Shown: positions 9,700 to 59,007 of the stretch, in pieces
Layout of the letters: each line of letters starts with the position of its first letter
How positions within the stretch are numbered: the stretch's first letter is position 1
Assembly: GCA_017452505.1 (NCBI GenBank)
Contig: JAFTMI010000027.1
Span: forward strand, 48,203-112,202
Length of the DNA: 64,000 nucleotides
Direction of reading: 5' to 3'
Origin: Oscillospiraceae bacterium
GTDB lineage: Bacteria; Bacillota; Clostridia; Oscillospirales; Oscillospiraceae
Program-made: the position numbers and the translations under genes
Notes under the pieces: generated by a model
Databases searched by the model: none
What the model was told of the DNA's origin: nothing
Seen by the model: only the letters and a program-made list of their open reading frames with translations

Positions 9700-10938
9700 T
9701 TATTCGCCTGCCACGCGGGCTTCAATTCTTTGGAGGGCATACTTCATTTTGGCATAGGTTTCTGCTGTCACCTTGTCCAAATATCCGCTTTCATAGGCGG
9801 CCATGGTTTCTTTCAAACGCACCACCTTAAGGGGCTTATTCTCTTCACTTACGGTAAAGATGGGAGTGTAGGTGCAGTTTGTGATCCTGGCATCGCCGGA
9901 TTTATGATCCTTGGTGATCTCCAAGTCCAGCACGATGGAATACTCCGAACCGGACCGGGAGGCATCGGAGAAGAAATCACCCAAAGAATAGGCCAGCACC
10001 TTGCCGGTTTCCGGGTTGAAGTCCACCTTCTGCACATAGTGGGAATGGGTGCCGAGAATGGCGTCCACATCATGGGACTGCAGCAGCTCCACAATGGCTT
10101 CCTGGCTGGGGCTGATGGTGTTGTTGAACTCACTGCCCCAGTGGAGCAGCGCCACCATAATATCCGGTTTTTCTTTCTTGGCGGCACCTATAATGGAAGA
10201 GATTTTCTCTGTATCCACCACCTGGTAGGCGCTGTCATAGTCCGTATACAGCACATTCACGCAGTTTTCACTGCCCACAGGCAGCGCCATGCCGTCCATG
10301 CCCTTGGTAAATGCCACAAAGGCAATGCGAATGCCTTGCACATTCTTGATGGTATAGCCCTTACCGGCCTTAAAATCCTTGTTGGTGGCATAAGCACCCA
10401 CAGGCTCCATGCCTGCGGCGGTGATGCCGTTTAAGGAAGTGGCAAGTCCGGAAATGCCCTTGTTGATGGAGTAGGAATTGGCCATCTGCACCAGGTCAAT
10501 GCCCATACTGCCCATAGCCTCGGCCAAGGCTTGGGGGGCAGAGCCACCTGCACCATAGGGCTCACCGCAGAGGTTGCCCTCAAAATTGATGGAGGCCACA
10601 TCCGCCTTGGCCAGCAAATGGGCTACATCCAAAAAGGCTTCTGTATAGCCGGCTGCATCGCCGGCGCCCACGGTTTTATCGTTCACATTCAGGTCGCCTG
10701 CCGCCGCATAGTGGATCACGGTTTTGGAGGGCTTGGTTTCGGCTGTGGCAGCAGTAGTGGCCGGAGTTGTTCCCTGGGTAGGGACTGTGGTACTGACTGT
10801 GGGGTCAGCCGGAGCGGGGTCTTTGCCGGAAATGCTGAAAATCAGCACGCCGCAAACGATCAGCACGGTGGCTGCAATCAACAGCCGAATTGGCAATTTT
10901 GTGACTTTTTTCGGCGGTCTGCGCCGGGGTTTCTCCAT
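9700..10938 (-). CDS. CapA-family protein (metallophosphatase-like, membrane anchored)
   Basis: A 412-residue protein related to CapA of poly-gamma-glutamate synthesis. The ATG at 10938 is preceded by AAAGGAGG. After a basic N-terminus comes one membrane helix (about 20-42), a Pro/Thr-rich linker (about 45-80), then the CapA domain with GDLNVNDK, NFEGNL, LLHWGSEF, LGTHSHYVQ and YSLGDFF in family order. No capB or capC is adjacent, so poly-gamma-glutamate synthesis is not implied. Many clostridial genomes carry stand-alone CapA-like proteins of unknown role at the cell surface. Confidence 0.85.
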   Translation of the reverse strand: MEKPRRRPPKKVTKLPIRLLIAATVLIVCGVLIFSISGKDPAPADPTVSTTVPTQGTTPATTAATAETKPSKTVIHYAAAGDLNVNDKTVGAGDAAGYTEAFLDVAHLLAKADVASINFEGNLCGEPYGAGGSAPQALAEAMGSMGIDLVQMANSYSINKGISGLATSLNGITAAGMEPVGAYATNKDFKAGKGYTIKNVQGIRIAFVAFTKGMDGMALPVGSENCVNVLYTDYDSAYQVVDTEKISSIIGAAKKEKPDIMVALLHWGSEFNNTISPSQEAIVELLQSHDVDAILGTHSHYVQKVDFNPETGKVLAYSLGDFFSDASRSGSEYSIVLDLEITKDHKSGDARITNCTYTPIFTVSEENKPLKVVRLKETMAAYESGYLDKVTAETYAKMKYALQRIEARVAGE

Positions 10939-11125: not shown

Positions 11126-12055
11126 ATGAACAAAATCTTTACACCTCCCGTGGGTCGATTTGCCCCCACGCCCTCCGGGCGAATGCACCTGGGCAATGTG
11201 TTTGCGGCGCTGATCGCCTGGCTTTCCGTCAAGTCCCGGGGCGGCTACCTGATCCTGCGTATGGAGGACTTAGACACCCAGCGGACAAGCGCGGAATTTG
11301 CCGACCTTTTGCGGTCAGATCTGCGGTGGCTGGGTCTTGACTGGGACTTGGAAACCGACCCCCAAAGCCAGCGCTCGGCAATTTATGACCAATATTTTCA
11401 AAAATTGGAGCAAATGGGTCTGCTCTACCCCTGCTACTGCACCCGCAGCCAGCTGCATAGTGTAAATGCCCCCCATCTGTCCGACGGCACTTATGTGTAT
11501 GCGGGCACTTGCCGAAATCTCACGGAAGCGCAAAAAGCCGCCTTTGGCAGAGCCCCTGCCTGGCGGGTAAAAGTTCCGGACAGAATATGGACCGTCGAGG
11601 ACCTGGCCCAAGGCACTTATACGGAGAATTTGTTAAGCGATTGCGGCGACTTTGTGGTGCGCAGAGCCGATGGGGTGTATGTGTACCAGCTGGCGGTGAC
11701 GGTGGACGATGGCGAAGCCGGGGTCACAGAGGTGGTCCGGGGTATGGATTTGCTCAGCTCCGCCCCCCGGCAGATGTATTTGCAGGAGCTTTTCGGCTTT
11801 CAGCACCCGGCATACGGCCATGTGCCCATGCTTTTAGCCCCGGACGGCCGGCGGCTCAGCAAGCGGGATAAGGATATGGACTTAGGCTTTTTGCAGGCAC
11901 ATACCACCCCGGAAGCCCTTTTGGGGCTACTCGGCTATGCTTGCGGTATTCTTAACAAGCAAGCCCCCATCTCCGCCAAGGAACTGTCCGCTGAATTCAG
12001 CTGGAACAAGCTAAAGCCCCAAGACATTTACCTGGATATTTCCTCTTTGCTGTAA
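11126..12055 (+). CDS. gluQ: Glutamyl-Q tRNA(Asp) synthetase
   Basis: A 309-residue truncated glutamyl-tRNA synthetase paralogue (YadB/GluQRS type). By family knowledge it attaches glutamate to queuosine in the anticodon of tRNA(Asp). It keeps the class I catalytic core: HIGH-like APTPSGRMHLGN near residue 13, and a KMSKS-like RRLSKRDKD near 245. It ends soon after, so the anticodon-binding domain of true GltX is missing. The zinc site expected in this family is visible as YPCYCTR followed by TYVYAGTC. The ribosome binding site is weak (TTGGTGA). Confidence 0.88.
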   Translation: MNKIFTPPVGRFAPTPSGRMHLGNVFAALIAWLSVKSRGGYLILRMEDLDTQRTSAEFADLLRSDLRWLGLDWDLETDPQSQRSAIYDQYFQKLEQMGLLYPCYCTRSQLHSVNAPHLSDGTYVYAGTCRNLTEAQKAAFGRAPAWRVKVPDRIWTVEDLAQGTYTENLLSDCGDFVVRRADGVYVYQLAVTVDDGEAGVTEVVRGMDLLSSAPRQMYLQELFGFQHPAYGHVPMLLAPDGRRLSKRDKDMDLGFLQAHTTPEALLGLLGYACGILNKQAPISAKELSAEFSWNKLKPQDIYLDISSLL

Positions 12056-14431: not shown

Positions 14432-15817
14432 TTACTTGTCCTGCAAATACTTATCGATGGCAGCGGCGGCCTTCTTGCCGGCGCCCATTGCCAGGATAAC
14501 GGTGGCAGCGCCGGTAACAGCATCGCCGCCGGCGAACACGCCGTCACGGGTGGTCATCTCGTCCTCATTGACGATGAGGCCGCCCTTGCGGTTGGTTTCC
14601 AGACCGGGGGTGGTAGACCGGATCAGCGGGTTGGGGCTGGTGCCCAAGCTCATAATCACAGTATCCACATCCAGCACGAACTCAGAACCGGGAACCTCGA
14701 TGGGACGGCGGCGGCCGGAAGCATCGGGCTCACCCAACTCCATACGGATGCAGTTCATACCGCAGACGCGGCCATCCTCGTCGCCGATGATGGAAGTGGG
14801 GTTGCACAGGGTCTTAAACTCGATGCCCTCTTCCTTGGCGTGGTGCTGCTCTTCCAGACGGGCGGGCATCTCAGCCTCACCGCGGCGGTAAACAACATAA
14901 ACATGTTCAGCGCCCAGACGCATCGCGCAGCGGGCAGCGTCCATTGCCACGTTACCGCCACCCACAACAGCAACTGCCTTGGACTTGATGACGGGAGTAT
15001 CGTAATTCTCGTCGTAAGCCTTCATCAGATTGGTACGGGTCAGATACTCGTTGGCGGACATAACTCCCTTGAGGGATTCACCGGGAATGTTCATAAACAT
15101 GGGCAGACCTGCGCCGGAGCCCACAAACACAGCCTTGAAGCCCATGTCGAACAGCTCGTCGATGGTGAGCACTCTGCCGATAACCATATTGGTCATCACT
15201 GTCACGCCCTGGGCCTCCAGCTTGCTGATTTCGTTGGCAACGATGGCCTTGGGCAGACGGAACTCGGGGATGCCGTAAACCAGCACGCCGCCGGCGGTAT
15301 GGAGAGCCTCGAACATAGTGACCTCATAGCCCCGCTTGGCCAAATCGGAAGCAGCGGTCATACCGGCAGGGCCGGAACCCACAACGGCCACCTTCTTGCC
15401 GTTGGACTCGACCTTCTCGGGCATTGCGTTCACATTCTCCCGGTACCAGTCAGCAACGAAGCGCTCCAGGCGGCCGATAGCAACGGGCTCACCCTTGATG
15501 CCGCGAACACACTTGGCCTCGCACTGGGTCTCCTGGGGGCAAACACGGCCGGAAAGAGCGGGCAGCGCATTGGTGGAGGTGATGACCTCGTAAGCGGCCT
15601 TGAAGTCGCCTTCCTGGACCTTCTTAATAAACTCGGGGATACGCACGTTAACGGGGCAACCCTCTACGCAAGCGGGCTTCTTACAGCCTAAGCAGCGGTT
15701 TGCCTCTTCGATAGCCATTTCGGCGGTGTAGCCGATGGCAACTTCCTTAAAGTTCCGGGCACGAACCTTGGGGTCCTGCTCAGGCATAGGAGTTTTTGTC
15801 AGTGTCATATTAGCCAT
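14432..15817 (-). CDS. nfnB: NfnB-like / GltA-family NADPH-binding flavoprotein
   Basis: A 461-residue protein homologous to the small subunit of glutamate synthase. The N-terminus carries Cys motifs for two [4Fe-4S] clusters (CLGCKKPACVEGCP near 42-55 and CPQETQCEAKC near 95). Two Rossmann sites follow: VAVVGSGPAGMTAASDLA near 147 (FAD) and VAVVGGGNVAMDAARCAMR near 285 (NADPH). No glutamate synthase large subunit is nearby, and the gene lies 13 bases after a dihydroorotate-dehydrogenase-electron-transfer-like gene. That pairing matches NfnAB, the electron-bifurcating ferredoxin:NADP+ oxidoreductase of anaerobes. Automated annotation may call it glutamate synthase. Confidence 0.8.
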   Translation of the reverse strand: MANMTLTKTPMPEQDPKVRARNFKEVAIGYTAEMAIEEANRCLGCKKPACVEGCPVNVRIPEFIKKVQEGDFKAAYEVITSTNALPALSGRVCPQETQCEAKCVRGIKGEPVAIGRLERFVADWYRENVNAMPEKVESNGKKVAVVGSGPAGMTAASDLAKRGYEVTMFEALHTAGGVLVYGIPEFRLPKAIVANEISKLEAQGVTVMTNMVIGRVLTIDELFDMGFKAVFVGSGAGLPMFMNIPGESLKGVMSANEYLTRTNLMKAYDENYDTPVIKSKAVAVVGGGNVAMDAARCAMRLGAEHVYVVYRRGEAEMPARLEEQHHAKEEGIEFKTLCNPTSIIGDEDGRVCGMNCIRMELGEPDASGRRRPIEVPGSEFVLDVDTVIMSLGTSPNPLIRSTTPGLETNRKGGLIVNEDEMTTRDGVFAGGDAVTGAATVILAMGAGKKAAAAIDKYLQDK

Positions 15818-34281: not shown

Positions 34282-34337
34282 TTGTAGGGGAGGCATAGTA
34301 TGCCTCCCGCGGGAGGGATAATATCCCTCCCCTACAA
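34282..34337. repeat. Palindromic repeat family 1, compact copy, supplies the mtaB stop
   Basis: Two palindromes almost touching (GAGGCATAGTATGCCTC and GAGGGATAATATCCCTC) between TTGTAGGGG and CCCCTACAA ends. The TAG stop of mtaB (34332-34334, complement) is part of the terminal TTGTAGGGG. Confidence 0.88.
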
Positions 34338-35621
34338 AAGCAATTCTCCTATTAAGCCGTCCTTATAAAGTCCTGTGATTTCCACAGTGCAGACGGTGTT
34401 GTGCAGGTTTTCGCCTTTTGCGTAAACCTTCACATAATTGGGGGTGTGTCCTGTGTAGTATTCCCCGCTTTCCTCCTCAAAGAGCACTTCCTGCCGGGAG
34501 CCTGCCATATTTTCCCGGTAGTCCTTAGACATTTCGGCGGCGATGGCAAAGGCTTTTTTGCTCCGCTGCTCTTTCACCCCATTGCCCAGCTGGCCGGGCA
34601 TTTTGTCCGCCGGTGTGCCCGGACGGCGGGAGTAGGGGAAGATGTGCATATCCGCAAAGCGGCACTTTTGGATAAATTCCAAAGACTGCGCAAATTCTTC
34701 CTCGGTTTCTCCGGGGAATGCCACGATCATATCGGTAGTCACGGCACAGCCGGGGAAGTGTTTATTCAAAAGTTCCACACTTTCATAGTACCGAGCGGTA
34801 TCGTACTTCCGCTTCATGCGGGAAAGTACCGTATCACAGCCGGACTGCATGGAAAGATGGAACTGGGGGCACAAGTTGGGAAATTCCTGCAGTTTTTCGC
34901 AGAACTCCCGGGTAACGATGCGAGGCTCTAAAGACCCAAGGCGCACCCGCAAATCGGGAACAGCCGTACAAACCGCCGTCAAAAGCTCCGTCAGCGGAGG
35001 CTTGCCGGGCAAGTCCGCGCCCCAGGAGGCAATTTCGATGCCGGTGACGATAATTTCCTTGTAGCCCTGGTTTTTCAGCTCCTTGGCCTGTTCCACCGCC
35101 AATTCTATGGGGGCGGAACGGATCGGGCCTCTTGTATAGGGAATGATGCAGTAGCTGCAAAAATTCACGCAGCCGTCCTGCACCTTCAGCATAGCCCGGG
35201 TGCGGCCCTCTAAACCGCCGGCAGGAAGCACTTCAAACTGCCGGCGCTTCAGCGCTTCGTCCAAGCAGGTGGCTTTTTGTTTATTTTCGGCACAGGCAAG
35301 CACCTGCTCTATAAATTCTGCCCGTTTTGCACTGCCGCCAATCACATCAATGCCCAAATCCGAAAGCTTTTCTGCCGCATGCTGGGGATAGCAGCCGCAA
35401 ACGGCAATCACCGCCTTCGGATTCTCCCGGCGGCAGCGGCGGATAACAGCCCGATTCTTCTTGTCCGCCACGGCGGTCACGGAGCAGGTATTGATGATAT
35501 AGCCGTCACATTTTTCGGAGAAATCGCCGATGGTGTGGCCTTGCTGAACAAGCAGCTGCTCCATGGCCTGGGTCTCGTACTGATTCACTTTGCAGCCCAA
35601 GGTGTAAAAACCGAATTTCAT
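34332..35621 (-). CDS. mtaB: tRNA (t6A37)-methylthiotransferase MtaB
   Basis: A 429-residue radical SAM methylthiotransferase that converts t6A37 to ms2t6A37 in tRNA. The N-terminal UPF0004 domain carries three cluster cysteines: YTLGCKVNQYE (Cys10), NTCSVTAVADKKNR, and VCGCYPQ. The radical SAM motif CVNFCSYC is near residues 151-158, and a TRAM-like domain closes the protein. The opening KFGFYTLGCKVNQYETQ and CVNFCSYCIIPYTRGPIRS separate MtaB from MiaB and RimO. The final codons lie against a family-1 repeat that supplies the stop. Confidence 0.93.
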   Translation of the reverse strand: MKFGFYTLGCKVNQYETQAMEQLLVQQGHTIGDFSEKCDGYIINTCSVTAVADKKNRAVIRRCRRENPKAVIAVCGCYPQHAAEKLSDLGIDVIGGSAKRAEFIEQVLACAENKQKATCLDEALKRRQFEVLPAGGLEGRTRAMLKVQDGCVNFCSYCIIPYTRGPIRSAPIELAVEQAKELKNQGYKEIIVTGIEIASWGADLPGKPPLTELLTAVCTAVPDLRVRLGSLEPRIVTREFCEKLQEFPNLCPQFHLSMQSGCDTVLSRMKRKYDTARYYESVELLNKHFPGCAVTTDMIVAFPGETEEEFAQSLEFIQKCRFADMHIFPYSRRPGTPADKMPGQLGNGVKEQRSKKAFAIAAEMSKDYRENMAGSRQEVLFEEESGEYYTGHTPNYVKVYAKGENLHNTVCTVEITGLYKDGLIGELLL

Positions 35622-35691
35622 AGCCTGCTCCTTTCTTTTTGTTAATTCTTATTATATGCGAAAAAATCCCGTTTGTACAGTAGAAAATCCG

Positions 35692-35720
35692 TTGTCAAAC
35701 ATGGGCAAATATGCTATCAT
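35692..35720 (+). promoter_or_regulatory. Promoter of the ruvC-ruvA unit
   Basis: TTGTCA (35692-35697), a 17-base spacer and TATCAT (35715-35720), 23 bases before the ruvC start. No clear LexA-type operator is seen. Confidence 0.8.
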
Positions 35721-35743
35721 AACAGAAAAAGGAGGTGGTGGCT

Positions 35744-36241
35744 TTGCGGATATTGGGAATCGACCCGGGCTATGGCATCACGGGCTTTGGCCTTATCGAG
35801 GCCGAGCGTAATCAGTTTCGTCTTCTGCGGTGCGGCGCCATCACCACCCCGGCAGGTATGGATTTCTCCGCCCGCTTGGAAATCATTTACAATGATATGA
35901 CCGAGCTTTTGCAGGTGGCAAAACCCGACCAGGTGGCCATCGAGGAGCTGTTTTTCGGACAAAATGTCACCACCGGCATTGGCGTTGCCCAGAGCCGGGG
36001 CGTGATCCTTTTGGCCATTCGCCAGGCGGGCTTGGAGGTTTCGCAGTACAAGCCCATGCAGGTAAAGCAGGCGGTGGTGGGTTACGGCAACGCCACCAAG
36101 CACCAGGTGATGGATATGACCAAGCGGATCCTGGGTCTTTCCCAAATGCCCAAGCCCGACGATGCCGCCGACGCTATTGCCATCGCCCTGTGCCATGCAA
36201 GATCCGCAAGCAGCCTTATCACCAAGGCGACAAGAAATTGA
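35744..36241 (+). CDS. ruvC: RuvC, Holliday junction resolvase
   Basis: A 165-residue endonuclease that cuts Holliday junctions. I chose the TTG at 35744, eight bases after AGGAGG, because the protein then opens with the canonical RILGIDPGYGITGFG; GTG codons at 35735 and 35738 overlap the ribosome binding site. The catalytic acidic residues are visible as Asp in ILGIDPG, Glu in VAIEELFFGQN and Asp in DDAADAIAIALCH. The TGA stop lies inside the left arm of the 27-bp inverted repeat that encloses the next gene. Confidence 0.95.
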   Translation: MRILGIDPGYGITGFGLIEAERNQFRLLRCGAITTPAGMDFSARLEIIYNDMTELLQVAKPDQVAIEELFFGQNVTTGIGVAQSRGVILLAIRQAGLEVSQYKPMQVKQAVVGYGNATKHQVMDMTKRILGLSQMPKPDDAADAIAIALCHARSASSLITKATRN

Positions 36242-36635
36242 AAATTGAAAGTTGAAAATTAAAAATTATGAAAAACATAATTCGGGAAAAAAGTTACACA
36301 TTTGCTTTGCGCATTGTGAAATTATGTAATTATCTATATAAAGAAAAGCGTGAGTCAATAATGTCCAAACAGTTACTTCGTTGCGGTACCAGCATTGGCG
36401 CAAACGTTGCAGAATCCCAACATGCGCAGAGTCGCGCAGATTTTTGCTCCAAGTTGAATATTGCCTTAAAAGAAGCAGCAGAAACAGATTATTGGTTGCG
36501 ATTGCTCCATGATTCCAGTTACTTAAGCGACGCTGAGTTTCAATCTGTTTTTTCAGATTGCAAAGAAATCGAAAGTCTTTTGGCTTCGATAGTAAAGTCT
36601 GTGAAGAGTTAATTTTCAACTTTCAATTTTCAATT
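36236..36635. mobile_element. 400-bp IVS-like cassette with 27-bp perfect inverted repeats
   Basis: The left arm 36236-36262 is the exact reverse complement of 36609-36635. Each arm is built of ATTGAAA-type heptads. Between them sits one gene for a four-helix-bundle (23S rRNA intervening-sequence family) protein. Both the ruvC stop and the internal gene's stop lie in the arms. The cassette interrupts the ruvC-ruvA spacing, and its transcript could form a 27-bp stem, like the stems at the ends of 23S rRNA intervening sequences. No transposase is present, so mobility is inferred. Confidence 0.7.
36268..36612 (+). CDS. Four-helix-bundle protein (23S rRNA intervening-sequence protein family)
   Basis: A 114-residue all-helical protein of the S23/IVP family. 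Characteristic stretches are IREKSYTFALRIVKLCNYLY at the N-terminus, QLLRCGTSIGANVAESQHAQS in the middle and FCSKLNIALKEAAETDYWLRLL next. Members are encoded inside intervening sequences of 23S rRNA genes and as stand-alone genes; related proteins (Avd) serve diversity-generating retroelements. No reverse transcriptase or variable repeat is visible here. There is no clear ribosome binding site, and base composition is markedly more AT-rich than ruvC or ruvA, both signs of insertion. Confidence 0.92.
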   Translation: MKNIIREKSYTFALRIVKLCNYLYKEKRESIMSKQLLRCGTSIGANVAESQHAQSRADFCSKLNIALKEAAETDYWLRLLHDSSYLSDAEFQSVFSDCKEIESLLASIVKSVKS

Positions 36636-36673
36636 TTCAATTTTGAATTTCAGAATACTTGGAGGACTTTCCT

Positions 36674-37273
36674 ATGTTATACTATGTTTCCGGTACTGTG
36701 ACTGTTTTGGAGCCGGGTTTGGCGGTCATTGATTGCGGCGGCGTGGGCTACGGCTGCCGTGTCACCGCTTACACCGCTGCCCAGCTGAAATTAAATCAGA
36801 GCGCCAAGCTGTTTATCACCGAGTCTATTCGGGAGGATGCCTTTGATCTGTACGGCTTTTCCAGCCGGGAGGAGCAGAAATGCTATGAGCTGCTCACCTC
36901 CGTTAATGGTGTTGGCCCCAAGGCCGCCTTGGCGATCCTGTCCGCTGGCCCCCAGAATTTCACCTTAGCGGTGATGACCGGGGACGAAAAACTCCTCACT
37001 GCCGCTCAAGGCGTGGGCAAAAAGCTGGCCCAGCGCATCATTTTGGAGCTGAAGGACAAAATGGGCGGTGCAAACACGGAGATCGATTTCTCCGCCGGTG
37101 TCTCCGTCGCCGCACCCGCTGCCGGCAACAACGCCCAGTTGGCTACCGCCGCTTTGCAGGAGCTGGGCTACTCGCCTGCTGAGATCGCCACCGCCCTCAA
37201 GGGCGTTGACCCGGGCGCTACCACCGAGGAAATGGTCCGCTTTGCCTTGCGGACAATGGTTATGAAATCATGA
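36674..37273 (+). CDS. ruvA: RuvA, Holliday junction branch-migration subunit
   Basis: A 199-residue DNA-binding tetramer subunit that loads RuvB. I chose the ATG at 36674 (MLYYVSGTVTVLEPG) with GGAGG eight bases upstream. Domain I is the OB fold, domain II has helix-hairpin-helix motifs (LTSVNGVGPKAALAIL; AAQGVGKKLAQRIILELKDK), and domain III near 150-199 contains ALQELGYSPAEIATALKG. Its stop overlaps the start of the AraC-type gene (ATGA). ruvB is not adjacent; it lies at 48.9 kb. Confidence 0.96.
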   Translation: MLYYVSGTVTVLEPGLAVIDCGGVGYGCRVTAYTAAQLKLNQSAKLFITESIREDAFDLYGFSSREEQKCYELLTSVNGVGPKAALAILSAGPQNFTLAVMTGDEKLLTAAQGVGKKLAQRIILELKDKMGGANTEIDFSAGVSVAAPAAGNNAQLATAALQELGYSPAEIATALKGVDPGATTEEMVRFALRTMVMKS

Positions 37274-38169
37274 AAACATCTAATCTACAACAAGTGCCGT
37301 ATTTTGACAACCGGAGCTTTTTCAAGGACAGTTGCCCTGTCTATATCCAGCTTTCCACGGAGTTTCCCAAGTATGTGGGTGTTATGCACCGGCATCAGTT
37401 CGTGGAGATCGTGTATATTCTCTCCGGCGAGGCTACCCACACCGTTGGCGACCGGGAATACACGGTAAAAAGCGGCGATGTGGTGGTCATCAACTGTGGT
37501 GTGCCCCACAAATTCACCGCCAACGCCGCCGCGGGCGAGCTTTTTGTGGCCTACGATCTGATGTTCGGCCTTCCATTTATCGACCCCACCGCCGGAAACG
37601 ATGCCACTTTTGAATCCCTGCAGGATAGCTTTTTGTTTGGCGCTTTGTTCCCCGGTGAAGCCGCCTTACCCGATATCCACATCAGCGGCAAGCGCTACGG
37701 CTCCTACGGTGACCTGTTCACCCGCATCTACCACGCACTAAAGGGCAAGGAGCGGGGCTATATGGAGCTGAGCCGGGCCTATGTGATCGAGCTGATCGTA
37801 AAGATCCTGCGGGACTTAGGTCGAAACAGCGCAAAGGAACTGACCTCCGAAAACAAAAAAGCGGTTTTTGCCGCCATCAGCTATATGGAGCGCCGCTACA
37901 ACACCCCCCTGGACTTGGAAGACATTGCCGCCCAGGTATTTCTGAGCCCGGAGTATTTCCGAAAGCTGTTCAAGAAGATGACCGGCGAATCGGTACGCAC
38001 CTACCTGCACGGCCTGCGGGTGGATGAAGCCTGCCGGCTGCTGACTGTGACGGATATGTCCATACAGGATATTTCCCTTGCTGTGGGCTACCAGGATATG
38101 AAGTCTTTTTACCAGGCCTTTAAGCAAAAAACAGGCAAAACACCGAAAGAATACCGAAATCACCAATAA
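37270..38169 (+). CDS. AraC-family regulator with cupin sensor domain
   Basis: A 299-residue regulator. The N-terminal cupin (about 35-110) shows MHRHQFVEIVYILSGEATHTV and GDVVVINCGVPHKFTA, which would bind a small ligand. The C-terminal double helix-turn-helix (about 200-299) has the AraC signature: DLEDIAAQVFLSPEYFRKLF followed by DISLAVGYQDMKSFYQAFKQKTGKTP. It overlaps ruvA by four bases but precedes a catabolic-looking gene set and is its likely controller. A dyad at 38208-38230 is a candidate target. Confidence 0.92.
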   Translation: MKTSNLQQVPYFDNRSFFKDSCPVYIQLSTEFPKYVGVMHRHQFVEIVYILSGEATHTVGDREYTVKSGDVVVINCGVPHKFTANAAAGELFVAYDLMFGLPFIDPTAGNDATFESLQDSFLFGALFPGEAALPDIHISGKRYGSYGDLFTRIYHALKGKERGYMELSRAYVIELIVKILRDLGRNSAKELTSENKKAVFAAISYMERRYNTPLDLEDIAAQVFLSPEYFRKLFKKMTGESVRTYLHGLRVDEACRLLTVTDMSIQDISLAVGYQDMKSFYQAFKQKTGKTPKEYRNHQ

Positions 38170-38207
38170 AATATCCGTTTTTCCCAATTACACTGGCTCC
38201 TTTTTTT

Positions 38208-38230
38208 GATAGTATAAGATTGATACTATC
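38208..38230. promoter_or_regulatory. Inverted repeat upstream of the phosphotriesterase-like gene
   Basis: GATAGTAT and ATACTATC separated by seven bases, ending 19 bases before the TTG start. There is no T run after it, so an operator is more likely than a terminator. It could bind the adjacent AraC-type regulator. Confidence 0.5.
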
Positions 38231-38249
38231 GGAAAAGGAGCTGATTTTT

Positions 38250-39296
38250 TTGGCAATTCAAACCGTAACGGGCATTTTGCAGAAAAAAGATGCCGGCATC
38301 GTGACCCCTCACGAGCATATTTTCATCGAGCTGACAGCTTTTTTTGAGGAACGCCCCCTGAAAGACTGCGAAAGTCCCGCCACCGCCCCTGTCACCATGG
38401 ACAAGCTGGGCATTCTGAACCGTGACCCCTATGCCCTCCGGGACAATCTGCGGATGAACGACTACGAAACCCAGAAGAAAGAGATCCTCCGCTTTAAGAA
38501 TGCCGGCGGCGCCACCATTGTGGACGCTACCATGCCCGGCATCGGCAGAGATCCCAAAATGCTGCGGCGCATCGCCGAGGCCACCGGCATCAACGTGGTG
38601 ATGGGTACGGGCTACTATGTCTGCTCCACCCACCCGGAAGCCATGAAGTCCATGACCGAGGAGCAGATCGCCGAGGAAATGATCCGGGAGATCACCGTGG
38701 GCGCCGAGGGTACGGACATCAAGGCCGGTGTCATCGGCGAGATCGGCATCAGCGAGGTGTTCAACGAGGAAGAGCGCCGGGTGCTCCGGGCAGCCGCCAT
38801 CGCCTGCAAAAAGACCGGTACTCCCATTTTGGTCCACATCAACCCCTGGACCGTGAACGGCTTGGAGGCAGCGGAAATCCTGCTGAATGCCGGTGTTGAC
38901 CCCAAGAAGATCGCCATTTCCCACATCGATGTTGAAAACAATATGGATTACATCCACAAGCTGCTCCAAATGGGCGTGTATGTGGAATTTGACAACTTCG
39001 GCAAGGAGTACTATGTGGACCGGGAGGCCCGCCGGGAGGGCTACGGCCTGTTCGTCCACGATACCGACCGGGTAGAATGCCTCAAGGCCCTCATCGACGA
39101 GGGCTACGGCAAGCAGCTGCTGGCAAGCTGCGATGTGTGTCTGAAGACCTGCCTGCGCACCTACGGCGGCTGGGGCTATGACCATGTTTTGGTAAATATC
39201 GTGCCTATGATGGAGGATGCCGGTATTCAACAGGCAGCCATCGACGATCTGCTGATCCATAACCCGGCAGAATTTTTGGATAACGGAGGACTTTGA
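38250..39296 (+). CDS. Phosphotriesterase-family (PHP/PTE) metal-dependent hydrolase
   Basis: A 348-residue TIM-barrel amidohydrolase of the phosphotriesterase family. The TTG at 38250 is chosen for AAAAGGAG nine bases upstream. Metal-binding landmarks: TPHEHIFIE (HxH, about residue 26), IGEIG with a Glu where many relatives have a carboxylated Lys, HINPW, SHIDV, and the late Asp in LASCDVCLKTC. Real substrates of such PTE-like proteins are often lactones or esters rather than organophosphates. It lies two bases before an M24 peptidase-like gene with which it must be co-transcribed. Confidence 0.88.
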   Translation: MAIQTVTGILQKKDAGIVTPHEHIFIELTAFFEERPLKDCESPATAPVTMDKLGILNRDPYALRDNLRMNDYETQKKEILRFKNAGGATIVDATMPGIGRDPKMLRRIAEATGINVVMGTGYYVCSTHPEAMKSMTEEQIAEEMIREITVGAEGTDIKAGVIGEIGISEVFNEEERRVLRAAAIACKKTGTPILVHINPWTVNGLEAAEILLNAGVDPKKIAISHIDVENNMDYIHKLLQMGVYVEFDNFGKEYYVDREARREGYGLFVHDTDRVECLKALIDEGYGKQLLASCDVCLKTCLRTYGGWGYDHVLVNIVPMMEDAGIQQAAIDDLLIHNPAEFLDNGGL

Positions 39297-45548: not shown

Positions 45549-45564
45549 AAAATACCCCTTTATA

Positions 45565-45684
45565 ATGCAAAATGTAAAATGCAAAGTGCAAAATTGAGGT
45601 GTCGCTCCGCAACTATTTTAAATCATTGCCGTAGGCAATACCTTCATTTTGCATTTATCATTTTGAATTTTGCATTCTTAATTT
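45565..45684. repeat. Heptad-phased inverted tracts between the PDZ and kinase genes
   Basis: The left tract is ATGCAAA-ATGTAAA-ATGCAAA-GTGCAAA (45565-45592). The right tract (45644-45684) repeats TGCATTT-type heptads in inverse orientation. Between them is a small hairpin-forming segment (ATTGCCGTAGGCAAT). The kinase stop codon (45678-45680, complement) lies in the right tract. The design parallels the arms of the 36236-36635 cassette but without a gene inside. Confidence 0.7.
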
Positions 45685-48015: not shown

Positions 48016-48024
48016 AAATAATAA

Positions 48025-48052
48025 TTCTCAATTCTCAACTCTCAATTCTCAA
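48025..48052. repeat. TTCTCAA heptad tract in the uppP leader
   Basis: Four consecutive heptads (TTCTCAA, TTCTCAA, CTCTCAA, TTCTCAA) sit just before the uppP ribosome binding site. A related shorter tract lies at 56298-56318. Confidence 0.75.
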
Positions 48053-48067
48053 TTTTTGGAGGCAATC

Positions 48068-56295: not shown

Positions 56296-56297
56296 AA

Positions 56298-56318
56298 TTC
56301 TCAATTCTCCATTTTCAA
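56298..56318. repeat. TTCTCAA-type heptad tract before the MBL gene
   Basis: Three heptads (TTCTCAA, TTCTCCA, TTTTCAA) fill the 19-base gap between dtd and the MBL start and contribute its ribosome binding site on the minus strand. Confidence 0.6.
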
Positions 56319-56782
56319 TTTCTTCTGGGTGTGTCCAGCAGTTCTGCGGTGTCCAAAATGAGGGTGACAGGGCCGTCGTTGACGGACTCCACCTGCATAT
56401 CCGCGCCAAACTGGCCGTGCTGGGGAGGATAGCCCAGTTCCTCACAGACGGCAAGGAACTTTTCATACAATTCATTGCCCAATTCCGGGCCGGCTGCCCC
56501 CACAAAGCTGGGGCGGCGACCCTTGCGGCAGTTGCCGTACAGGGTAAACTGGCTCACCACCAGCACCTGTCCGCCCACATCATCCAGGCCCAAATTCATT
56601 TTACCGTTTTCGTCCTCGAAAATGCGCAGGCCCAGGGCCTTTTCCGCCAAATACCGGCACTCCTTTTCGGTATCCTCCGGGCCAACGCCCAGCAGGATCA
56701 GAAAACCCTGGCCGATTTTGCCTACAATTTCACCGTCGATTTCCACCGACGCAGATTTTACTCTCGTTAAAACCGCTCGCAT
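56315..56782 (-). CDS. dtd: D-aminoacyl-tRNA deacylase
   Basis: A 155-residue DTD enzyme that removes D-amino acids (and glycine mischarged on tRNA-Ala) from tRNA. The opening MRAVLTRVKSASVEIDGEIVG, the active-site SQFTLYGNCRKGRRPSF and the late NDGPVTLILDT, containing the cross-subunit Gly-Pro motif (here G-P in NDGPVT), are all present. I chose the ATG at 56782 with AAGGAG. It follows rel by 41 bases, a gene order conserved in Bacilli and Clostridia. Confidence 0.95.
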   Translation of the reverse strand: MRAVLTRVKSASVEIDGEIVGKIGQGFLILLGVGPEDTEKECRYLAEKALGLRIFEDENGKMNLGLDDVGGQVLVVSQFTLYGNCRKGRRPSFVGAAGPELGNELYEKFLAVCEELGYPPQHGQFGADMQVESVNDGPVTLILDTAELLDTPRRN

Positions 56783-56795
56783 AATAACTCCTTCA

Positions 56796-56823
56796 TTATG
56801 CATTATGCATTACGCATTCTGCA
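56796..56823. repeat. TTATGCA-type heptad tract between dtd and rel
   Basis: Heptads TTATGCA, TTATGCA, TTACGCA, TTCTGCA directly next to the rel stop codon. Confidence 0.7.
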
Positions 56824-59007
56824 TTAGTTCTGTCCTCTCCGGGTGCCGATCACGTCCCGGATATTCATCAGCTTATTGCGGATAGAGTCCAGCTCATCCA
56901 CGTTCTTGACCTCAAAGCGCACGGTGATCACGCTGTGACCGCCGGGCATATCCTTACCGCTGATCTCCTTCATATGCACCCGGGTGGTGGTAAGGGTGGT
57001 AACGATGTCCAGCAGCAAGCCATCCCGGGTGATGCAATCCAGCTCCAGGGTGGTGTCAAAGGGCTGATCGTCCTGGACAGCCCAGCGCACCCGCACCCAA
57101 CGGGCGGCCTGGTGGGGTTCGTCCCGGTTCTGGGCATTGGGACAGTCGATCCGGTGGACGGACACACCAAAGCCCTTGGTGATAAAGCCCAAAATGCCAT
57201 CACCCGGCACGGGGGTACAGCACTTGGCAAACTTGATCATACAGTTGTCGATATCCTCCACGATCACGCCATTGACGCTGTGGCGGTTCTTGGGGGCAGT
57301 ATCAGGCTTGACGGCGTTGGATACCACCTGCTTTTCCAGGTTTTGCGCCTTCATCGCCCGGTTGATGTCGTCCCGGATGCGGCCAACGGCCTTCACGGCG
57401 GTTAAGCCACCGTAGCCGATGGCGGCATACATATCCTCCCAGGTGTCGAAAGCTAACTTTTTCAGCAGCTGGGGGCTCAGCTCCGGGTCTACCGTGAGTG
57501 ACAGGGGCAAGCCGATCCGGCGCATTTCACCCTCGAAGGATGCCCGGCCATGGGCCACATTCTCCTCCCGGCGCTCCCGCTTGAACCACTGCTTGATCTT
57601 GGTGCGGGCCTGGTTAGACTTACAGATATTCAGCCAGTCACGGCTGGGGCCACGGGCGGCCTTGGAGGTGATGATCTCCACGATGTCGCCGTTTTGCAGC
57701 TTGGTATCGATGTTGCAGATGCGGTTATTCACCTTGGCGCCAACCAGGGAGTTACCCACACCGGAGTGAATGGCATAGGCAAAGTCAATGGGGGTAGAGC
57801 CGGCGGGCAAGGACACGATCTTGCCCTTGGGGGTGAAGGCAAACACCTCGTCGTCGAACATATCGATCTTCATGGAGTTCAGATAGTCCTCGGCATCGGT
57901 GTCCTGCTGGCTTTCCAGCAGGCGGCGTACCCATTCAAAATCCTTTTCCTGGCCTGCGCCCTCGCCCTGCTTGTATTTCCAGTGAGCGGCGATGCCGTAT
58001 TCGGCAGTTTCGTGCATATCCCAGGTGCGGATCTGCACCTCAAAGGGAATGCCCTGCTTGCCGATGACCGTGGTGTGCAGGCTCTGGTACATATTGGGCT
58101 TGGGGGTAGAGATATAGTCCTTGAACCGGCCCGGTACCAGGTTAAACAGGTCATGGATATGACCCAAAACATTGTAGCAATCGGGAATGGTGTCCACGAT
58201 GACCCGGAAGGCGTAAATATCATACAGCTCGTCGATGGTCTTGCCCTGGGCATTCATCTTCCGATAGATGGAGTACACGTGCTTGATCCGTCCGTAGGTC
58301 TTGCTGTGGATGCCCATAGACTCCAGCCGCTCAGAGATCTGATCCTGAATGGTGTGCATAAAGGCCTCGTCCTTTTCCTTGTGGGCGGACAGGTAGGTGA
58401 GGATCTCCTCGTAGCTTTGGGGATCCAGATACCGCAGAGCAATATCCTCCAGCTCCCATTTCATCTTCTGAATACCAAGGCGGTGCGCCAGGGGCGCGTA
58501 AATATCCATGGTCTCCCGGCACTTGATGATCTGCTTTTCCGGGGTCTGATACTGCATGGTGCGCATATTGTGGAGTCGGTCGGCGATCTTGATGAGAACC
58601 ACCCGGATGTCCTTGCTCATGGCCATGAACATCTTCCGCAGGTTCTCCATCTGCGCCTCCTCCGTGGAGGAGAAATTGGCTCGGGTCAGCTTGGTAACAC
58701 CCTCCACCAGCTCGGCGGTGGTGGTGCCGAAAAGCTTGGCAATCTCAGAAAAAGATGCGTCGGTGTCCTCGATGCAATCGTGGAGCAGCGCGCCCAAAAT
58801 CGCATCCATATCCAGGCCCATTTCCGCCACGATCTCCGCCACCGCCAAGGGGTGGATGATGTAGGGAGAGCCGTCCTTGCGCTTTTGGTCCTTGTGCTTT
58901 TCCCGGGCATATTCCACAGCCCGGTCAACAAGCTCCATATCCACACCGGGTACGCACCGATTTAAGGTTTGGTACAGTGACCCATAGTGTTCAGCAAAAG
59001 TTTCCAT
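56824..59007 (-). CDS. rel: Bifunctional (p)ppGpp synthetase/hydrolase Rel
   Basis: A 727-residue long RSH protein. The N-terminal HD hydrolase domain contains LLHDCIEDTDASFSEI (about 70-85). The synthetase domain includes YDIYAFRVIVDT and PKPNMYQSLHTTVIG (about 235-330). The TGS domain (VFAFTPKGKIVSLPAGSTPIDFAYAIHS, divided near 405) and C-terminal zinc-finger/ACT region (NCMIKFAKCCTPVPGDGI; FEVKNVDELDSI) complete the standard order. It makes and degrades the stringent-response alarmone. It begins two bases after the recJ stop. Confidence 0.97.
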   Translation of the reverse strand: METFAEHYGSLYQTLNRCVPGVDMELVDRAVEYAREKHKDQKRKDGSPYIIHPLAVAEIVAEMGLDMDAILGALLHDCIEDTDASFSEIAKLFGTTTAELVEGVTKLTRANFSSTEEAQMENLRKMFMAMSKDIRVVLIKIADRLHNMRTMQYQTPEKQIIKCRETMDIYAPLAHRLGIQKMKWELEDIALRYLDPQSYEEILTYLSAHKEKDEAFMHTIQDQISERLESMGIHSKTYGRIKHVYSIYRKMNAQGKTIDELYDIYAFRVIVDTIPDCYNVLGHIHDLFNLVPGRFKDYISTPKPNMYQSLHTTVIGKQGIPFEVQIRTWDMHETAEYGIAAHWKYKQGEGAGQEKDFEWVRRLLESQQDTDAEDYLNSMKIDMFDDEVFAFTPKGKIVSLPAGSTPIDFAYAIHSGVGNSLVGAKVNNRICNIDTKLQNGDIVEIITSKAARGPSRDWLNICKSNQARTKIKQWFKRERREENVAHGRASFEGEMRRIGLPLSLTVDPELSPQLLKKLAFDTWEDMYAAIGYGGLTAVKAVGRIRDDINRAMKAQNLEKQVVSNAVKPDTAPKNRHSVNGVIVEDIDNCMIKFAKCCTPVPGDGILGFITKGFGVSVHRIDCPNAQNRDEPHQAARWVRVRWAVQDDQPFDTTLELDCITRDGLLLDIVTTLTTTRVHMKEISGKDMPGGHSVITVRFEVKNVDELDSIRNKLMNIRDVIGTRRGQN

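Follow-up and report, generated by a model that had tools for sequence, protein, structure and literature searches.

REPIN-RAYT systems combine one gene framed by hairpin repeats with scattered geneless hairpins of the same kind.

The intervening sequences (IVSs) of 23S rRNA offer a further point of comparison. Passages of PMC4990558 describe the cleavage of their stem by RNase III, a Coxiella IVS, given as 428 and 444 nt, containing an ORF with a poor Shine-Dalgarno (SD) sequence, and the S23 protein of Xanthomonas, which is a homopentamer. The protein family PF05635 is related to Avd (according to part of PMC10053308), and a figure legend in PMC10910872 names a '23S rRNA IVP', the abbreviation that we use for these proteins. 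Heptameric repeats form a separate body of literature. In passages of PMC4692102, where Mrazek 2007 is cited, they are stated to be over-represented in many bacterial genomes, with no detailed literature available at that time; the heptamers GGGAATC and GGGGATT of Xanthomonas and Nostoc are described there as generally not associated with mobile elements, and paired convergent heptamer sites are noted in Xanthomonas. Part of PMC4679880 reports TAACTGA arrays from Beggiatoaceae, cyanobacteria and Bacteroidetes, with no evident transfer mechanism; its main text gave no matches for 23S, S23, intervening or four helix. Among the matches listed from the open-access PMC literature, none joins PF05635 or IVP genes to heptamer arms.

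Here we analyse an IVP gene that lies between inverted heptamer arrays. We consider it probable that it represents a compact mobile-element family in which such an IVP gene is enclosed by arms that also form a stem in the transcript, and that this family works by the mechanism proposed below.

The ruvC-IVP-ruvA locus

In the window, the whole stretch of 64,000 nucleotides that was analysed, the IVP gene lies between ruvC and ruvA on the same strand (Table 1). Its ORF matched PF05635 (E=1.9e-28) and TIGR02436, 'four helix bundle protein' (3.1e-31), and both neighbours were confirmed by Pfam and NCBIfam, in agreement with the first-pass annotation of an IVS-family gene enclosed by repeat arms within this gene pair. 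The inverted repeat described there as perfect over 27 bp is real, and its perfect arms measure 28 bp; a 34-nt version is 91% complementary. The best ungapped arm score was 28, compared with a maximum of 10 in 20 single-base shuffles of the same flanks. By a period scan, both arms are tandem period-7 arrays of AATTGAA with small variations, a build that had been overlooked at first. Other initial observations were borne out: the arms contain the stop codons of ruvC (TGA, 36239-36241) and of the IVP gene (TAA, 36610-36612); the IVP gene is AT-rich, with a GC content of 0.38 compared with 0.57 in ruvC and 0.58 in ruvA; and no SD-like stretch was seen before the IVP ATG at 36268, which the left arm reaches. 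The element has a length of ∼400 bp. Pfam and NCBIfam detected no recognised transposase in it, only matches of the PF05635 and TIGR02436 type, and Rfam yielded no match in window positions 35000-38500, around ruvC-IVP-ruvA. RNA folding gave -115.3 kcal/mol (z -4.1) with a predicted arm stem.

Table 1. Features of the armed element, its host genes and other heptamer arrays in the window.
Feature	Positions	Strand	Remarks
ruvC, upstream host gene	35735-36241	+	RuvC by Pfam and NCBIfam; frame ends inside left arm
Left arm, heptamer array AATTGAA AATTGAA AGTTGAA AATTAAA AATT	36235-36267	+	perfect inverted-repeat part 36235-36262; contains ruvC stop
IVP gene, 114-aa four-helix-bundle protein	36268-36612	+	PF05635/TIGR02436
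Right arm, inverted heptamer array including IVP stop codon	36609-36650	+	perfect part 36609-36636
ruvA, downstream host gene	36674-37273	+	RuvA by Pfam and NCBIfam; TGGAGG at 36660-36665 before start
Geneless heptamer hairpin, unit AATGCAA, two inner hairpins; copy of multicopy miniature	45564-45676		array scan, genome matches
Solo heptamer array, unit AATTGAG on other strand	48023-48054		just before SD of next ORF
Weaker heptamer array, AATTGAA/AATGGAG/AATTGAG on other strand	56296-56321		array scan
Solo heptamer array, AATGCAT/AATGCGT type on other strand	56794-56825		equal-length gap in G083

The genome of the window (G000) is a MAG with 82.5% completeness and 6.1% contamination. A 100% identical copy on its contig C69 was rejected as a separate insertion because 2218 identical bases there represent the same ruvC-ivp-ruvA locus, assembled twice. 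A third IVP, on contig C38, is 42% identical to that of the window and has no arms. No further copy with the window's arms was found elsewhere in G000; the search for same-armed copies that had been suggested for this genome thus returned nothing besides the doubly assembled locus. A different miniature type is present at window positions 34282-34337, where a hairpin with 28-nt arms (89% complementary, no loop) occupies the 3' end of the gene at 34332-35621. By eye it resembles the GTAGGG-type inserts in the ruvC-ruvA gaps of relatives (L019, L229, L234).

Arms, descent and placement of the family

IVPs were present in 60 of the 99 genomes picked as relatives, and 60 further IVP places from relatives' genomes, part of those found, were fetched. 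Among loci L001-L122, 37 of the 94 distinct copies have period-7 inverted arms (arm score ≥12, lag-7 agreement ≥0.6). A protein-only scan with one genome per species gave at least 586 matching stretches; of the best 80 (L123-L202), 76 were scorable, 62 being armed under a stricter rule (score ≥14, lag-7 agreement ≥0.6) and 14 failing it. For the analysis of arms we scored 192 IVP copies with both flanks, leaving out repeats (L002, L004, L035, L211, L225, L230 and L233), identical genes, domain fragments, copies with <50 bp of flank and loci from L310 on. Heptamer arms were found in 116 of the 192 copies, with a median span of 454 bp; these comprise 34 in L001-L122, 63 in L123-L202, 10 on viral contigs, 5 on plasmid records and 4 in later loci. 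The viral contig L213 contributes three of the 116 and L046 two.

These 116 strong-armed copies were chosen regardless of period; the best lag was 7 in 114 of them. We counted arrays scoring ≥12 in 452 kb, comprising the window and loci up to L122 (picked around ruvC or an IVP, some overlapping): period 7 occurred 110 times, period 12 once, and periods 4-6 and 8-11 not at all. Outside elements, 278 kb of L123-L202 contained 45 arrays of period 7, five of period 8, four of period 9, six of period 11, five of period 12 and none of periods 4, 5, 6 or 10. The left-arm unit is mostly ARTKNNN; ARTK is found in 101 of the 116 copies, which comprise 64 distinct heptamers, compared with 32% of shuffled units, and the aligned units hold 4.43 bits compared with ≤2.88 in 50 shuffles. 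The unit fits the left arm better than its reverse complement does in 102 of 116 copies; because 58 of the 116 units also show ARTK on their opposite strand, the polarity is weaker than this fit suggests. We considered the left arm as a universal stop signal, a unit of 7 = 3n+1 bases placing a stop in all frames, and dropped this function because the units AAGATAC, TTGCAAA and TTCACTA contain no stop.

The three variable bases of the unit vary between elements and are common to both arms of one element. Paired with its own partner, an arm scored 22.9 on average, compared with 6.0 with the right arms of other elements; in 85 of the 116 elements no other right arm did better than the own one. 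At one site as well, arms built from different heptamer types match each other poorly. Two Planktothrix plasmids (97% identity) differ in one arm by 21 nt, equal to three units, and in nearby arrays by 7 and 10 nt. In an IVP tree limited to the relatives' loci, with fragments and copies with an internal stop left out (94 reduced to 87 rows), all 36 armed rows belong to one clade of 41 rows (support 99/98), which includes five unarmed rows; the 46 rows outside it are all unarmed. These observations bear on the idea that the arrays are ordinary simple repeats, arising anywhere and enclosing an IVP by chance, as the over-representation of bacterial heptamers generally not with mobile elements might suggest (passages of PMC4692102). 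However, the two arms that flank the gene are inverted and match each other, such arms are absent from the 46 IVP rows outside the armed clade, and their unit has a consensus; chance enclosure therefore appears to us very improbable.

By record titles, armed copies span at least seven phyla. Those from L123-L202 are assigned to Clostridia, Bacteroidales/Prevotella/Flavobacterium, Acidobacteria, Lentisphaeria, Arcobacter/Sulfurovum/Nitratifractor, Ignavibacteria and Alcanivorax, and armed copies on plasmid records come from Nostoc, Aulosira, Planktothrix, Euhalothece and Bernardetia; a copy on a Monoglobus plasmid record was armed in one of two scorings only. Carriage by phages or plasmids was rejected, being rare (14 loci in viral contigs, 27 of 72,556 plasmid records and 2 of 50,697 phage records). 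In eight of nine pairs of relatives dN/dS was well below 1 (for example dN 0.049 and dS 1.36 for L048-L064), indicating purifying selection on the IVP; the exceptional pair, L074-L062, had a dN of 2.1, perhaps owing to a wrong frame in one of the two. The solved relative 2rld matches the IVP family at 9.5e-54, and 2rld and 2gsc were each deposited with five chains.

Another layout was seen in some unarmed IVPs (L059, L078, L092, L099, L101, L104, L105, L108 and L112), which are near separate TATTCAC-type heptamer arrays or hairpins. Armed IVPs of Planktothrix plasmids (L222, L263) lie inside a defence locus, between drmD and a methyltransferase/type IIL gene, and a Monoglobus IVP with heptamer arms (L218) lies inside a defence locus between hsdS and hsdR.

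Judged by ORF heuristics, 69 of the 116 armed copies are in sense orientation between co-directional genes and 8 are antisense there, 16 lie between convergent genes, at the end of one of them, and 2 between divergent genes, while 21 have no call on one or both sides. The upstream stop codon precedes the arm by a median of 3 nt and lies inside the arm in 39 of 98 cases; the next start follows a median of 16 nt past the element. Always-sense, RNA-only insertion was rejected, since antisense orientation was found in 8 of the 77 co-directional cases and, according to its annotation, in L223. Several sites recur: ruvC-ruvA; ruvA-ruvB (G064, G124); SRP RNA-dnaX, with six loci having an SRP RNA match (dnaX named by Pfam in L040 and by eye in the others); and purH-purD, with ten loci (named by Pfam in L051). 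Armed elements also stand beside tRNA genes in L039, L045, L130 and L151. At purH-purD, a PurH+PurD tree joins L056 with L054 (99/99), whereas the IVP tree gives it a long branch and groups it with the AGATACA elements (100/98). Because host and IVP trees disagree for L056, repeated insertion or exchange at this site is likelier than simple inheritance; owing to the same disagreement, a change of heptamer in situ was not established.

Placement also bears on the initial proposal that the IVS kind of element had entered an mRNA operon. The IVP family, the complementary ends, the ORF filling the loop and the mRNA operon all stand. The locus does not, however, represent an rRNA element strayed into one operon: armed relatives are mostly at gene junctions, and Rfam found no rRNA match in any of 80 loci, those of the best relatives among at least 586 matching stretches. 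A relative of the 23S rRNA IVSs that strayed into mRNA only here would account for the PF05635 protein and the complementary ends, as IVSs are described in part of PMC4990558, but in view of these 80 loci we give it hardly any credence.

The same placement, between a stop codon and the next start and mostly sense, would suit a domesticated RNA-processing device, in which RNase III cuts the ruvC-ruvA mRNA at the stem, the IVP regulates, and mobility is incidental and old. The strong predicted stem, purifying selection on the IVP and the recurrent sites ruvC-ruvA, SRP RNA-dnaX and purH-purD are compatible with such a device. It fits poorly with the many unrelated sites and with the patchy occurrence even among nearest relatives, and we judge it improbable.

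Presence, absence and geneless hairpins

Patchiness is apparent at ruvC-ruvA itself. Of 136 same-genus genomes searched, 119 had a match, and IVP elements at ruvC-ruvA were found in G000, G135, G134, G014, G116, G105 and G123. The ruvC-ruvA gap of 28 other same-genus genomes measured 14-59 bp in 17 (counted from the last aligned ruvC codon), held an IVP element in one (G014) and measured 86-944 bp in ten, among them two with geneless heptamer hairpins (L011, L025). G083 and G140, which are the two nearest relatives searched (RuvA 96% identical), have no IVP element at ruvC-ruvA, their gaps being filled by another hairpin and a geneless heptamer hairpin. In G064, AATTGAAAATTATAAATT is retained at the ruvC-ruvA place and is possibly a scar; the IVP of this genome stands at ruvA-ruvB and is 79% identical to that of the window. 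G027 has an ORF of its own, 250 aa long, in the ruvC-ruvA gap (L005 2177-2929).

The first-pass annotation would have given up its reading had the element been present at the same place in all relatives, with no empty site, no other copies and no transcript processing at its arms. What we found instead are element-free gaps, copies elsewhere and two nearest relatives without the element. The spacer comparison in relatives that it recommended thus revealed element-free gaps in 17 of 28 same-genus genomes, but no clean empty-site pair for an IVP-bearing element among the pairs compared; only miniatures yielded empty sites that were fairly clean. In Nostoc, element-free plasmids carry 332 bp of a methyltransferase gene that plasmids with the element lack at its site; in L223 the element replaces ∼33 nt of the empty site and is antisense to both annotated neighbours. 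Filled/empty comparisons gave no consistent target-site duplication. In L045, where the element lies next to tRNA-Leu, it is flanked on either side (∼1430 and ∼1885) by the 14-nt sequence CACACGCGGATATG, as though insertion had duplicated the start of the tRNA; no flanking repeat of this type was seen in L039 or L130.

Geneless heptamer hairpins provide present/absent pairs. The miniature at 45564-45676 was matched in seven of eight genomes searched, including its own, and in G140 at 18 places of 83-126 bp. Hairpins of G083 are absent from G000 (flanks 95 and 94% identical) and G140 at L297 ∼15130-15290, from G140 at L305 ∼9800-9950 (flanks 97 and 95%), and from G140 at L296 ∼11880-12030 (flanks 78 and 94%); the hairpin-free sequence at this last place joins a stop codon to an SD. 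The flanks of these miniature empty sites are thus 94-97% identical in two pairs and 78-94% in others. The cassette of the window belongs to a family with mobile members, in line with the 'mobile unit' reading offered at the outset. The stop-SD junction of L296 carries a heptamer hairpin in G083, an unrelated insert in G000 and nothing in G140, and thus is a hot spot for several insert types. At the junction of the array at 48023-48054, G083 and G140 hold other inserts.

We aligned 20 of 25 miniature rows, having left out reverse strands of the same copy and copies at the same place. Eight of 20 predicted pairs had changed on both sides, compared with a mean of 2.3 in shuffled alignments (0 of 500 reached 8) and with 1-4 for sliding partners; the RNAalifold covariation term was small (-0.85 of -13.98). 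In one miniature copy, AATTGAA arms take the place of AATGCAA arms around the same core. The IVP element of G140 has AATGCAA arms, the word of the G140 miniatures. More generally, 37 of the 74 arrays counted as outside (>300 bp away from the armed element of their locus) differ from its word by at most one base, and 23 of them are identical to it. Permutation gave a mean of 10.8 and a maximum of 20 in 500; it leaves base composition uncorrected, and part of the agreement could stem from local duplication or from the presence of two elements in one locus (L046, L213).

With regard to candidate enzymes, a PF00078/RVT_1 search found no reverse transcriptase in G000 (82.5% complete); one was found in 6 of 12 relatives. 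Y1_Tnp, a Y1-type transposase, is present in G000 on contigs other than that of the element, and no Y1 transposase was found in G140, G083, G064 or G014. The hairpin-rich G140 (83% complete), with the most copies of the eight genomes searched, has neither RVT_1 nor Y1_Tnp. The heptamer hairpins might nevertheless be DNA elements whose movement is due to some transposase or to errors of replication, with the IVP as a passenger or hairpin binder and not a mobiliser. That geneless hairpins outnumber IVP copies (18 places compared with one IVP in G140), that G000 has a Y1-type transposase, and that a miniature core occurs with AATTGAA in place of AATGCAA arms would all be accommodated. Against this, the genome richest in copies among the eight searched (83% complete) shows no Y1 transposase or reverse transcriptase, in the relatives' tree the arms accompany a single IVP clade, and the word of the local IVP tends to recur in outside arrays. 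We regard this reading as rather unlikely.

Proposed mechanism and relation to known systems

At the level of sequence, these comparisons demonstrate the anatomy, the matched words, a single armed clade in the relatives' tree, wide spread, mostly sense placement after stops, patchiness, purifying selection, and presence or absence of hairpins. For the IVP-bearing mobile-element family that we favour, we propose the following mechanism. The element would live off read-through from the upstream gene, and its arms would pair into a long stem in RNA or single-stranded DNA. The IVP, whose solved relatives were deposited with five chains, would recognise the heptamer stem, promote its copying or insertion and in this way act as the driver of mobility; it may also serve geneless hairpins in trans, much as RAYT serves REPINs. 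By analogy with 23S IVSs, the stem in mRNA is probably an RNase III substrate, and cutting there would split the ruvC message from that of ruvA and keep harm low. The arrays probably keep their word by 7-nt slippage together with copying of one arm from the other.

A broader reading is conceivable, and we advance it tentatively, as somewhat short of an even chance. The elements would constitute a new mobile-element class in many phyla, in which a pentameric four-helix-bundle protein replaces the transposase and recognises hairpins marked by ARTK plus a three-base code, each lineage having its own word, the same in both arms. The protein would mobilise geneless hairpins via a transcript or single-stranded intermediate, and the long-noted heptamer excess of bacteria would be largely debris left by this class.

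The annotation '23S rRNA-intervening sequence protein', where no rRNA is nearby, can now be taken to point to a defined element of predictable anatomy, and heptameric repeats recorded earlier without a mechanism acquire a testable origin. If the IVP moves or protects heptamer hairpins, bacteria would possess a mobile system that lacks a recognised transposase and whose elements and satellites have a common, element-specific 7-base word. Cleavage of transcripts within operons such as ruvC-ruvA, SRP RNA-dnaX and purH-purD is predicted.

By strict membership, the window element is not a 23S IVS; it works in part like one, with MITE-like satellites. Like 23S IVSs, it has a PF05635 protein, an ORF in an insert with complementary ends (the stem here being predicted) and a poor SD, as in Coxiella (passages of PMC4990558). 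Unlike them, such elements are between protein genes or beside SRP RNA or tRNA genes and not in rRNA; they have tandem heptamer arrays as arms, each element with a word of its own, and geneless hairpins accompany them. A related four-helix-bundle protein, Avd, is part of diversity-generating retroelements (PMC10053308, in part), in contrast to which no RVT_1 was found in G000. The arrays resemble known heptamer repeats in being mostly intergenic tandem 7-mers, and the opposite strand of TAACTGA reads AGTTATC, in agreement with ARTKNNN; GGGAATC and GGGGATT, in contrast, give AATCGGG and AATCCCC, with no fit to ARTK. Our hairpins differ from MITEs in their arms of 7-bp arrays, their covarying inner hairpins and the lack of an identified transposase partner, and resemble them in being short, geneless and multicopy, with inverted arms and present/absent differences between close genomes. 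Finally, compared with REPIN-RAYT systems, the framed gene here has PF05635 only and no Y1 transposase domain by Pfam, and the arms are heptamer arrays, whereas the overall plan, a gene framed by hairpin repeats with geneless hairpins of the same kind dispersed, is alike.
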